From Eubacterium sp. (lineage in GTDB: Bacteria; Bacillota; Clostridia; Lachnospirales; Lachnospiraceae), in the NCBI GenBank assembly GCA_017437905.1, contig JAFRWY010000014.1, forward strand, positions 1 to 60,937: a DNA stretch of 60,937 bases, in the 5' to 3' direction. The translations under genes and the position numbers were made by a program. The notes under the pieces are model-generated. The model ran no database searches and had not been told where the DNA came from. It worked only from the letters and a program-made list of their open reading frames with translations. This document shows, piece after piece, positions 30,572-34,264 of the stretch; position 1 is the first letter of the stretch, and every line of letters starts with the position of its first letter.

Positions 30572-33500
30572 TTACTGATCCTTGTTCTCCTGCTTCTTCT
30601 CCGGCTCGCTGCTGCCGGTCTCTTCCTTCTTCTCCGGACTACCGCCGCCGGTCTCTTCTTTCTTTTCGGAAGGACGCTTACCGTAGATCTGCTCGATATC
30701 GATCTTACCGTCCCGGATCAGCTTCAGCATGATATCCGCAACCGCCGGATCAAACTGCGTTCCCTTGCAGCGCTCCAGTTCTCCGATTACGAAATCGAAA
30801 TCCAGCTTCTGCCTGTAGACACGGTTGGCGGTCATGGCGTCAAATGCGTCCGCCACGCCGATGATCCGTCCGAAGATGGGGATCTCCTCCCCCTTCAGTC
30901 CTTTGGCATAGCCCTTTCCGTCGTACCTTTCATGATGGTAGAGCACACCGTCCATCACATTTTCCACCAGTGTGAAATCCTTCAGGATCGCCGCACCCCG
31001 CGTCACGTGGCTCTTCATGATGGCATATTCTTCATCCGTCAGTCGGGCAGGCTTGTTCAAGATCCGGTCCGGGATACCGATCTTTCCGATATCATGCAGC
31101 AGTGCGGTATTCCGGAGCTTCTCGCATTCCGCGTCATCAAATCCCAGTTCCTTCGCGATCATTACGGAATATTCCGATACACGCTGGGAATGCTGGCTGG
31201 TATTCTCATCCTTTGCATCCACGGTCTTCGCGATGGCGAGGATCGTTTCATTTCCCATCTGGACCTGTCTTTGGGCAAGTTCCAGCTGCTTCTGCTGAAG
31301 CGTCATGACACGCTGGCTCTGGGTCCTTGCAATAAACCATGTGAACCAGGCAACCGCGATCATAGCCACGCCCACCATGTAGACGATGAACCAGTGGTTG
31401 TCGTAGATCTCCTTCTCCTTGATCAGCAGGTAGGTACTCTCCTCCAGCACCTTCGTCTGATCGCTGTCCAGCACCGCCAGATGGAACTTGTAACTGCCTG
31501 TGGGAAGGTTCGTGTAGGTCACGGTAGTAAGCTCACTCTGATAAACCACGGTAGGCTCCGTGTCAAAGCCCTCCAGGTAATACTCCACGTAAGGATCGTC
31601 TATGGTATAGTTGATCACCTCCGGGAAGATCTCCACCTTGTTCACCCCGCGGGCGATATGGAAGGCATCCCCGCGCACCACGGGATATGCGGAACCGTCC
31701 AGCTTCACGGAGGAAACCAGCATACGATAGGACCCCTTCTGGCCGGTATAGGCAGAAGTGTCCAGCATATATACACCGGTATCGGAGGAAAGATAGAGCC
31801 GTCCCTCTTTGTCTCGGTAATTCCAGGAATTTGCGGTAAGCGAAGCACTCATACCGCTCTTGGCATCCAGCAGTTCATACCGCATCTCCGGGGTATCCGC
31901 TATCACATCATTTTCAGAGACTACATAGATCCCGGCACTGCTCAGCACAAAGAGCTTCCCGTTTCCGCCGGTCCAGATATCATAATTATTGAAATAAGGG
32001 AAATGTTCCAGGGTATGGATCCTGTAGCTGCTGTCCATGCAGCAGATCCCGTTACTGGTAACGATCAGGACATGCTCCCCGTCGGTGCATTTTGTCATAC
32101 GCAGAATGACGCCCGAAGAAAGCCCGTCATAGCGGGTCAGGATCCGGGCCGGGTTGCCGTTGCGGATCACGACGATACCATCCCCGTCGGTTCCGGCCAG
32201 CAGCGCGCCGTCGTCCATTTCCAAAAGACTCAGGATCATGGCATTTGAGAAATTATCCCCGTAAGTAATGGTCTGCCGGATCCCCGTTTCATCGATGAAA
32301 GCGATTCCCGTATCTCCTGCTGCGACCATCGTTCCGTCCGAAAGCTCCAGCACCGTTCTGCACCGGTCGCCGAAGGATCCGCTTGCACTGTCGAAGGTGG
32401 TGGTGGATCCGTCCTTCTTTACCTTGATGAGTCCCTTGCCGTATGTACAGATCCACAGATTGTCCCGGGAATCCTTCCGGACACAGCGGATCCTGACGCC
32501 CTCCAGCGTCCGGGTCAGTTCGTTCCGGATCGGGGCGTTGGCATTCATCCCTCCGATATCCAGACCGTCGTCGGTTCCGAAGTAAAGGGCTCCGTTCCAT
32601 TCGTCCACGGAATTGACCACCTTGCCGGTCAGGCCGTAGGCACGGAACACATCCGTGAAGACCGACCTGGACATGCGGAGCAGTCCCAGCCGGGAGGAGG
32701 TGAACCAGAGATTCCCCTGATAATCCACCGTCATATTGTCGATGGAATTGTTGAATTCATCACTGTTGATGTCCGTATAATTTCCCTTGGTGTCGATATA
32801 GCCTATACCGTTATCGGCGCAGATATACCCTCTTTCCTTCCCTGCGAAATTAATGGACTGGATATTTGAGAGGGAACCGCAGACAATCTTCCGCTGGCGG
32901 ACCAGCTCCGTCCCCGTGATCTCATAGACGTGGATGCTGTTCCTGGAGGTCCCCACATACAGAAGTCCGTCCTCCCCGAAGGTACTGCAGGTGAAGATCT
33001 CCCTGTCGTCAGGGCTCTCCAGCATCGCAAGGATCTCGCCATTTCCCATCAGGAAGAGCTTTCCTTCCGAGTTGACCGCCGCCGCATGCCCGCCGGCGTC
33101 CGAAGTTACGGTCACCGCATAATGCACCTGGGGGATCACATTTAAGATCTTGATCCCTTCACTCAGGGAGAGGACCGCCATACTGTCCGTGGTTCCGATG
33201 TAGTAATTACCATCGGAGCATTTGGTGATACAGCGGACGGAATCCGACGGAAGGCCCTTCTCCTTATCGATCACGCTGGCCACGCTGTCATTGATGACAA
33301 TGGTGACACCGTTGTCGTTGGTTCCGATCCAGAGGCGTCCTTCCTCGTCCACGTAAAGGCAGTTGGCGTTCCTGACGGAATCATACTCGTTCATCCAGCG
33401 GAATTCACTTCCGTTATACCGGTAAAGTCCTGCATAGGTGGCGATCCAGAGGATCCCGTCGTTGGTCTGGACGATATCATTTGCCTCCCCGCAGGGAAGA

Positions 33501-34264
33501 CCGTTGTCACTGCTGTATACCGTACGTACATATCCCCCCAGATCGTCCTCCGCCGCAGTGGATGGGGAACCGGAGTAAACTGCAGTGCCGAGAGCCGAAG
33601 CCAGCATGACCAGAATCATTCCGACTGCCTTCTCCGCAGGTTTTTCCCCGGAAGGATGTACAGAGTCTTCTCCACCGTGATGCGTATTGCCTTTCTTTCC
33701 GTTGATCAGCCGCTTTCGAACCTTCAGTATCACAAAAAGCAGGAGCAGGGTGACCACCTTATCCAGGAAATCCACATAGAACTGTCCGATAATGCCGCTG
33801 GGTACCATGGGAAGTCCCTCTTCCTTCAGGAAACCGATCACACCGTCTCCCCAGATATTATTCGTCATTCCGTCATAGAAGATAAAACTGAGCGGCACGG
33901 ACACCACAACAGCGGCCAGCGTAACTACAACGCTGACCGTCATGGTTCCGAAGACCGTTTCGAATCTTCCTTTTTTCGCCATGAATCCGATAAGGATACC
34001 GATCACGATACCTGTGATCGAATAGATATAAGAGGCTCCGTAGGTGATCCCGTAAATGACATTTCCGGTGAATCCCACGACCGCTCCGCAGAAAGGCCCC
34101 AGCGCGTACGCGGTAAGCGCCGTACCGAAGGAATCCAGCCATACCGGGAGCTGATACTCCTGGGCGAATACCTTTCCCGCATAGTTAAGAAGAATACACA
34201 CTGCAACAAAAGCAAAAAGTCGCAGTTTCTGTTTCATACTCAGATTACTCTCTCCGCTTTCCAT
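30572..34264 (-). CDS. ECF-S-like membrane domain + Reg_prop propeller + Y_Y_Y + HD-GYP protein
   Basis: The protein has 1230 residues. Residues ~10-185 are a multi-helix domain like ECF transporter S components (WLDSFGTALTAYALGPFCGAVVGFTGN is typical, here cut in motif). Another helix lies near 215-235. Residues ~248-880 are two-component-regulator propeller repeats (for example DGILWIATYAGLYRY, EGRLWIGTNDNGV). A Y_Y_Y domain (~900-960) and a helix (~970-990) come next. HD-GYP follows at ~1005-1185 with HDIGKIGIPD, HHERYDGKGYA and ADAFDAMT, then a KKEETG-repeat tail. HD-GYP enzymes hydrolyse c-di-GMP; here GYP reads GYA. The propeller should be outside and the HD-GYP inside. The start at 34264 has GGAGGGGACAGG directly upstream. 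Confidence 0.88.
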   Translation of the reverse strand: MESGESNLSMKQKLRLFAFVAVCILLNYAGKVFAQEYQLPVWLDSFGTALTAYALGPFCGAVVGFTGNVIYGITYGASYIYSITGIVIGILIGFMAKKGRFETVFGTMTVSVVVTLAAVVVSVPLSFIFYDGMTNNIWGDGVIGFLKEEGLPMVPSGIIGQFYVDFLDKVVTLLLLFVILKVRKRLINGKKGNTHHGGEDSVHPSGEKPAEKAVGMILVMLASALGTAVYSGSPSTAAEDDLGGYVRTVYSSDNGLPCGEANDIVQTNDGILWIATYAGLYRYNGSEFRWMNEYDSVRNANCLYVDEEGRLWIGTNDNGVTIVINDSVASVIDKEKGLPSDSVRCITKCSDGNYYIGTTDSMAVLSLSEGIKILNVIPQVHYAVTVTSDAGGHAAAVNSEGKLFLMGNGEILAMLESPDDREIFTCSTFGEDGLLYVGTSRNSIHVYEITGTELVRQRKIVCGSLSNIQSINFAGKERGYICADNGIGYIDTKGNYTDINSDEFNNSIDNMTVDYQGNLWFTSSRLGLLRMSRSVFTDVFRAYGLTGKVVNSVDEWNGALYFGTDDGLDIGGMNANAPIRNELTRTLEGVRIRCVRKDSRDNLWICTYGKGLIKVKKDGSTTTFDSASGSFGDRCRTVLELSDGTMVAAGDTGIAFIDETGIRQTITYGDNFSNAMILSLLEMDDGALLAGTDGDGIVVIRNGNPARILTRYDGLSSGVILRMTKCTDGEHVLIVTSNGICCMDSSYRIHTLEHFPYFNNYDIWTGGNGKLFVLSSAGIYVVSENDVIADTPEMRYELLDAKSGMSASLTANSWNYRDKEGRLYLSSDTGVYMLDTSAYTGQKGSYRMLVSSVKLDGSAYPVVRGDAFHIARGVNKVEIFPEVINYTIDDPYVEYYLEGFDTEPTVVYQSELTTVTYTNLPTGSYKFHLAVLDSDQTKVLEESTYLLIKEKEIYDNHWFIVYMVGVAMIAVAWFTWFIARTQSQRVMTLQQKQLELAQRQVQMGNETILAIAKTVDAKDENTSQHSQRVSEYSVMIAKELGFDDAECEKLRNTALLHDIGKIGIPDRILNKPARLTDEEYAIMKSHVTRGAAILKDFTLVENVMDGVLYHHERYDGKGYAKGLKGEEIPIFGRIIGVADAFDAMTANRVYRQKLDFDFVIGELERCKGTQFDPAVADIMLKLIRDGKIDIEQIYGKRPSEKKEETGGGSPEKKEETGSSEPEKKQENKDQ

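Follow-up and report, generated by a model that had tools for sequence, protein, structure and literature searches.

A putative purine- or nucleoside-responsive c-di-GMP switch combining an ECF S-component-like sensor and a BMP-type binding protein

The window, as the 60,937-nucleotide stretch of Eubacterium sp. DNA analysed here will be called (GenBank assembly GCA_017437905.1, contig JAFRWY010000014.1), encodes on its minus strand (30572-34264) a sensor of 1230 residues and, next to it, a BMP/PnrA-type binding protein. I hold with moderate confidence that the pair makes up a switch that responds to purines or nucleosides and acts on cyclic di-GMP (c-di-GMP). Judged by sequence, the membrane domain of the sensor is close to the S component of a phosphorylase-linked ECF transporter, and it is fused to a Reg_prop propeller, a Y_Y_Y domain and an HD-GYP domain with intact metal ligands. 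From these parts I infer the ligand, the docking of the BMP protein and the enzymatic activity; the ligand class can be sharpened to purines and nucleosides on the strength of the transporter operon and of the predicted BMP pocket.

Architecture of the sensor

The domains follow one another in the order ECF S-component-like domain, transmembrane (TM) helix, Reg_prop propeller, Y_Y_Y, TM helix, linker and HD-GYP. Pfam and NCBIfam searches with the 1230-residue frame bear out this string, which the original prediction had placed on one chain. Pfam gives HD_5 at 1.1e-40 (residues 1013-1175), Reg_prop at 8.3e-20 and Y_Y_Y at 4.6e-7, all above their gathering scores, and ECF_trnsprt at 7.5e-4, under its gathering score; no histidine kinase output was found by Pfam in the window sensor, the output being HD-GYP. 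The GYA that stands in place of GYP (residues 1118-1120) and the BMP-type gene 13 nucleotides past the sensor stop codon (PF02608 at 1.1e-27) were likewise described correctly. At the 5' end, ggaggggacagg precedes the ATG at 34264, and another in-frame ATG lies upstream at 34342.

Hydropathy analysis displays about five strong segments within the first 190 residues and single ones at residues 213-231 and 960-978. The propeller is predicted to be outside and HD-GYP inside, because the model of the S-like domain described below is read as six S-component helices. Residues 213-231 could be a seventh helix (TM7) following a positively charged cytosolic loop or, alternatively, a signal-peptide-like stretch. 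The linker at residues 981-1010, delimited by sequence and conservation, is taken as a signalling helix.

A search of genome contigs yielded at least 529 relatives of the sensor, the best 80 of which make up the sensor-locus sample: going by record titles, 60 are from Clostridia, 12 from Treponema/Spirochaetales, 4 from Chloroflexi/Flexilinea and 1 from Atopobiaceae, while 3 have no label. Strains with a name that have the system are Treponema bryantii B25 and T. zioleckii kT3. Calling of open reading frames recovered the S-like/propeller/HD-GYP order in 70 of the 80; among the remaining 10, L108 and L154 match end to end by tblastn and the others are broken in frame or cut by contig ends. The sensors from Treponema/Spirochaetales, Chloroflexi and Atopobiaceae have identities of 43-57%, and those sampled for the tree below sit among Clostridia.

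Kinship of the membrane domain with ECF S components

The NCBIfam model NF045596 (CD3073-family ECF S component) matches residues 18-182 of the sensor at 5.7e-21, with 74.9 bits for an equivalog cut-off of 180. Among 48 sensor S-like domains scanned, this model matched all 48, PF12822 matched 32, and PF07694, the 5TMR-LYT receptor family, matched 24 at E up to 0.01; the window domain gave no PF07694 match at E 0.01. No MASE family figures among the Pfam matches of the sensor listed up to E 1, a range in which HMMER's filtering removes the majority of those above 0.1. The AlphaFold model of residues 1-215 (pLDDT 92.1, pTM 0.82) has helices at 10-37, 46-55, 57-75, 81-97, 104-129, 137-148 and 153-195, which are read as the six helices of an S component, with an additional short helix in the final loop. 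S-component chains make up its first 12 PDB fold matches (RibU, FolT, PanT, ThiT and others; probability 0.96-1.00), and unrelated folds rank far beneath them; the chains 5d3m_C, 5jsz_C, 6zg3_C and 4huq_S are taken, by their length, to be S subunits. By profile and predicted fold, the N-terminal domain of the window sensor is a member of the S-component fold family. Structure prediction had been proposed as a check of this kinship, and profile, nearest relatives and fold agree with the original prediction, with no match to MASE.

Within the host's family, 107 of 299 genomes have a match to the S-like domain (E up to 0.001), in frames of several sizes. The loci compared, first 60 and then a further 20, were picked by hand from this match list, together with the host's second copy, and are a non-random set, candidate genome G064 being among those left unfetched. 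Representatives scanned fall into classes: proteins of about 1100-1300 residues have HD-GYP or GGDEF as their last domain, those of about 1500-1620 residues a histidine kinase/receiver/Hpt hybrid (L065) in its place, those of about 590-1110 residues join the S-like domain to HD-GYP or a kinase without a propeller, and those of about 200-220 residues are stand-alone S components. The host's second S-like/propeller protein (L032 on host contig C28, 1-3365, minus strand) carries Y_Y_Y and GGDEF and has its frame cut by the contig end; it is perhaps an opposite-acting paralog of the window sensor.

The 11 closest stand-alone proteins, which have at least 35% local identity to the sensor, look like genuine ECF subunits from their gene surroundings. 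All 11 adjoin EcfT and EcfA (EcfAA') genes, and in 8 loci a PNP_UDP_1 nucleoside phosphorylase gene directly precedes the S gene; the best NCBIfam model of two phosphorylases scanned is uridine phosphorylase, under its cut-off. Among 17 more distant stand-alones, 7 have an EcfT match and 2 a phosphorylase match within 10 kb stretches. The window sensor is 32-42% identical to nine aligned transporter S proteins. At 23 positions, many of them polar, the same residue occurs in at least 90% of both these nine and 25 sensors (for example N27, W42, D44, T48, N68, Y81, N136, W138, D168 and K169). Helix 1 behaves differently: A15, V18, L19, I20, P21, I24 and G25 are invariant in the nine transporter proteins and unconserved in the 25 sensors, a contrast inflated by the close relationship of the nine among themselves. 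The conserved AXXXA motif of helix 1 was unrecognisable in the transporter kin too, and helix-1 conservation was compared instead. Its absence in the sensors matches the loss of helix-1 coupling reported for S-fold receptors in PMC11109136.

A tree of 112 domains, among them a random 25 of the propeller/HD-GYP rows of the 80-locus set, was rooted at its midpoint; its bootstrap was unsettled, and L084, L085 and L070 have long branches. With this root, the 11 stand-alones (100/99) form the sister group of 75 sensor rows (97/86), and the two together are a clade of 86 rows (100/99); 3 of the 75 (L093, L148, L152) are short frames with no visible propeller. The BMP-linked HD-GYP group holds together (57 rows, 100/99). 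Eight propeller-less sensors ending in HD-GYP or a kinase (L082-L087, L090, L091) are placed elsewhere, beside other stand-alones (92/97), and because of this grouping the tree suggests a second, independent recruitment of S components.

The BMP partner and its predicted pocket

Absence of the BMP gene beside homologs was one of two observations named beforehand as speaking against the original prediction. The gene is in fact conserved there: by tblastn, 66 of 69 assessable loci, which come from Bacillota, Spirochaetota, Chloroflexota and Atopobiaceae, have it immediately after the sensor and on the same strand, assessable meaning that the sensor end is present with more than 700 nucleotides of room (11 of the 80 loci fell outside). 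The commonest junction is a 4-nucleotide overlap, and at L171 the BMP gene is upstream of the sensor with one gene between. In 28 stretches that carry sensors of other classes, two of which (L032, L071) stop inside the sensor, the search for a BMP gene gave no match. Among the 299 genomes, BMPs of this clade (at least 431 bits; the next best class starts at 267 bits) occur in 23, all of them among the 25 genomes with a confirmed clade sensor; G151 (the genome of L148), where the frame stops after the S-like domain and similarity runs to the contig end, was excluded from the latter. On this comparison of loci and genomes, the downstream BMP gene is part of the sensor system. At 18 loci, members of one binding-protein family lie directly upstream of the sensor (gap -46 to 78 nucleotides); three members scanned are SBP_bac_3, so that these operons have two different binding proteins.

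The AlphaFold model of the BMP protein (pLDDT 94.6) has a helix at residues 2-32. The window protein lacks a lipobox, since there is no Cys in its first 60 residues, and a lipobox-like match occurs in 1 of 57 partner N-termini; together these data suggest tethering by an N-terminal TM helix. Cysteines 98, 125, 236 and 252 are at least 96% conserved over 53 aligned partners, which suggests that they form disulfides. The best fold matches are AtzT, 3s99 (in which adenine is modelled) and Lbp with guanosine, followed by the riboflavin-binding RfuA and after it by PnrA and BmpD with nucleosides. AtzT was purified with guanine, and its guanine contacts are given in PMC6834077. These contacts were mapped by alignment only, after checking the AtzT numbering at nine residues, onto an alignment of the window protein and 41 of 48 selected BMPs (A4; n=42). 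Tyr45 corresponds to Y53 (33/42), Ser97 to S105 (32/42), Glu165 to E189 (40/42), Trp194 to W218 (38/42), and Asn218/Asn220 to H242 (36/42) and D244 (34/42), as in 3s99. The window BMP protein is thereby predicted to have a purine-type pocket that keeps most guanine-contact positions of AtzT.

The host genome has no BPD_transp_2 permease by a search that was positive in 12 of 14 named control genomes. A second, importer-type BMP is present in 9 sensor genomes, and in 8 of them BPD_transp_2 permeases lie no more than about 2.6 kb away from it. Two other host proteins with a BMP domain (L176 from 3303, L177 from 2907) have, by eye, a ParB-like front part and no visible signal sequence.

The HD-GYP output

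All 89 of the 89 distinct sensors share the same residues at eight metal/catalytic positions of HD-GYP, and the domain is predicted from its sequence to break down c-di-GMP. The last residue of the GYP motif is Pro in 50 of the 89 homologs and absent as such in 39. I had considered the change to GYA as a mark of altered activity and rejected it, the Pro varying freely while the metal ligands are invariant. The original reading of the protein as a transmembrane sensor is supported in part, through the S-component kinship and the BMP linkage; GYA has no particular significance.

Proposed mechanism and alternatives

In the mechanism that I favour, the BMP protein would bind a purine base or a nucleoside outside the cell and would dock on the outer face of the sensor, that is on the S-like domain, the propeller or both. 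The S-like domain would serve as a second ligand site or as a docking partner. The resulting change would travel from TM7 through the propeller and Y_Y_Y to TM8, the linker helix and the HD-GYP dimer, and would alter c-di-GMP hydrolysis by either activation or inhibition. For 5TMR kinases the signal has been proposed (PMC11109136) to pass straight down the last helix of the S-fold domain; since the propeller lies between, a signal from the S-like domain cannot take such a direct route into the output here.

Several observations weigh against this scheme. The uridine-type phosphorylase and the purine pocket would fit different exact ligands, and the phosphorylase is missing at 3 of the 11 transporter loci (L058, L064, L197). 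In Foldseek the S-like model reaches weak E-values (best 0.017, none below 0.001), and position 126, Asn in relatives, is Ser in the window sensor. As to the pocket, Phe98 (a backbone contact), Thr139 and Asn169 of AtzT (PMC6834077) are replaced. The HMMER alignment of AtzT has a gap in the stretch used to assign H242 and D244, and their assignment depends on the row of 3s99. PnrA accepts pyrimidine nucleosides as well, and the riboflavin-binding RfuA is fold match 10. BPD_transp_2 permeases are present in 18 of the 24 other sensor genomes, which limits the absence of an importer to the host and 6 of 24. No BMP neighbour was detected at L112 and L162 or in the sensor genomes G009 and G248; the BMP protein is therefore dispensable in some places. 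Lastly, among PDB sequences the HD-GYP part matches a 3'3'-cGAMP-specific enzyme best (5z7c, 5.8e-42), with 4mcw at 7e-42.

That last match, close as 4mcw is behind it, and the lack of the GYP Pro in 39 of 89 homologs would fit an output that cleaves another dinucleotide, such as 3'3'-cGAMP, or a regulatory pseudo-enzyme. The invariance of the eight metal/catalytic positions argues otherwise, as do the GGDEF and EAL proteins encoded in the same window, which make a c-di-GMP network likely, and I regard this alternative as decidedly improbable. Still less credence is due to the S-like domain continuing to import purine through a shared ECF module, so that signalling would report transport. The host's one EcfT and a fused EcfA pair are indeed encoded in the window (48938-49684 and 49815-51398, EcfT about 15 kb from the sensor), but the helix-1 residues of transporters are unconserved in the 25 sensors, with the inflation by kinship noted above, and tblastn with one EcfT query (E 1e-5) detected no such gene in the fetched stretches of the 80 loci that carry the sensor.

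A stronger challenge, which I nevertheless think rather unlikely, is that sensing is left to the BMP protein, which docks on the propeller in a manner comparable to LuxP-LuxQ, while the S-like domain is a mere membrane anchor or dimer module that has lost all binding. The position of the propeller between the S-like domain and the output is compatible with this, and mean column identity is higher for the BMP protein (59%) than for the S-like domain (46%; alignment A3, the window and 47 of the 80 loci). Conversely, the polar positions common with transporter S proteins are near-invariant in the sensors, and BMP distances follow those of the S-like domain (r 0.61) more than those of the propeller (0.42; bootstrap difference 0.07-0.26; 0.45 and 0.34 in a thinned set). 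Because Y_Y_Y (0.60), TM8/linker (0.65) and HD-GYP (0.57) track the BMP protein about equally well, this mirror-tree result is a weak hint.

Features and gene neighbourhood

Coordinates are collected in the table. The window also encodes a membrane GGDEF-like/EAL protein (34481-36421, plus strand), a FIST-GGDEF protein (39341-41095, minus) and a periplasmic-binding-like/GGDEF protein (45615-47912, minus). The second gene upstream of the sensor (36443-37510, minus) encodes a DNA/RNA non-specific endonuclease with a hydrophobic N-terminus, which could, speculatively, release purines outside. The only Rfam matches at gathering scores are a glmS ribozyme (1537-1747, minus) and a tRNA (39156-39228, plus).

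Table. Parts of the sensor and of its BMP partner in the window, and loci of the comparison sets
Feature	Position	Strand	Basis
S-component-like membrane domain (residues 10-195)	33680..34237	-	NF045596, AlphaFold and PDB fold matches, alignment with stand-alone S components
Hydrophobic segment after the S-like domain (residues 213-231)	33572..33628	-	hydropathy, sequence
Reg_prop beta-propeller region (residues 245-885)	31610..33532	-	Pfam, PDB sequence matches, alignment
Y_Y_Y domain region (residues 886-950; Pfam match 894-942)	31415..31609	-	Pfam
TM8 (residues 960-978)	31331..31387	-	hydropathy
Linker to HD-GYP (residues 981-1010)	31235..31324	-	sequence and conservation
HD-GYP phosphodiesterase domain (residues 1013-1175), GYA motif, metal ligands intact	30740..31228	-	Pfam, PDB match, alignment
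BMP/PnrA-type binding protein gene, 403 residues, operon partner	29347..30558	-	Pfam, fold, locus comparison
Predicted N-terminal TM anchor of the BMP protein (helix residues 2-32)	30463..30555	-	AlphaFold helix, lipobox scan
Clade-sensor loci outside Clostridia: L097, L098, L103, L109, L111, L129, L134, L142, L144, L150, L151, L161, L163, L166, L167, L169, L171			
Loci with the upstream binding protein: L100, L104-L107, L115, L119, L120, L125, L127, L129, L131, L135, L142, L153, L163, L166, L170			

Comparison with known systems

The window domain resembles the CD3073-family S components (NF045596) in profile, fold and the LPxWxDSxGT and GNxWG stretches, and like its transporter kin it scores under the equivalog cut-off; unlike them it is fused to a propeller and HD-GYP, lacks an EcfT/EcfA operon and lacks helix-1 conservation. 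With 5TMR-LYT receptors such as BtsS and YpdA, as presented in PMC11109136, it has in common the use of an S-component fold for sensing, but its model has no H0 helix (the first helix is 10-37), its last S-like helix leads to a propeller and not straight to a cytosolic output, and it is much nearer to an operon-borne transporter subunit. Reg_prop/Y_Y_Y hybrid two-component systems likewise have a propeller and Y_Y_Y before a TM helix (PDB matches 3v9f, 4a2l, 3ott), whereas the window protein has an S-like domain in front, an HD-GYP output and a separate BMP partner. The latter shares its fold and most purine-pocket positions with AtzT, 3s99, PnrA and BmpD, and differs from them by its predicted TM anchor, its four near-invariant Cys, the lack of a BPD_transp_2 permease in the host and, in the 299-genome sample, its occurrence only with the clade sensor. 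The output is like HD-GYP phosphodiesterases (4mcw, NosR family, 5z7c) in profile and metal ligands, and unlike them in its GYA motif and its transmembrane, transporter-related input.

S-fold receptors, including some with GGDEF/EAL outputs, have already been described, and their link to transporters was reported from predicted folds, without conclusive trees (PMC11109136). The main text of that paper has no mention of propeller, HD-GYP, c-di-GMP, nucleoside or phosphodiesterase; 'cyclic-di-GMP' occurs there with GGDEF/EAL. In the PMC subset searched, outside which subscription literature lies, neither HD-GYP with an ECF transporter S component, nor a nucleoside ECF transporter S component with uridine phosphorylase, nor CD3073 was found. 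Apparently new, judged by these searches, are the exact architecture, the cross-phylum BMP partnership, the two-sided ligand prediction and the S-component-to-receptor tree. From the sequence comparisons, the sensor looks as if it had spread between phyla by horizontal transfer. A more ambitious reading, plausible but on balance doubtful, is that a nucleoside ECF S subunit became a receptor that, with a tethered BMP protein, serves as a two-site purine gauge for c-di-GMP and was horizontally spread between phyla of gut-type bacteria; its transporter sister clade would then still reveal which class of ligand it binds.

For the majority of transmembrane c-di-GMP enzymes no ligand is known. Here two separate lines, the operon of the transporter sister clade and the BMP pocket, give one ligand class that is directly testable. 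The S-like domain also links ECF S components to receptors at the level of sequence and, if the more ambitious reading is true, would represent a tree-supported, sequence-level conversion of a transporter into a receptor. For the cells that carry it, the system probably tells them how much purine surrounds them.

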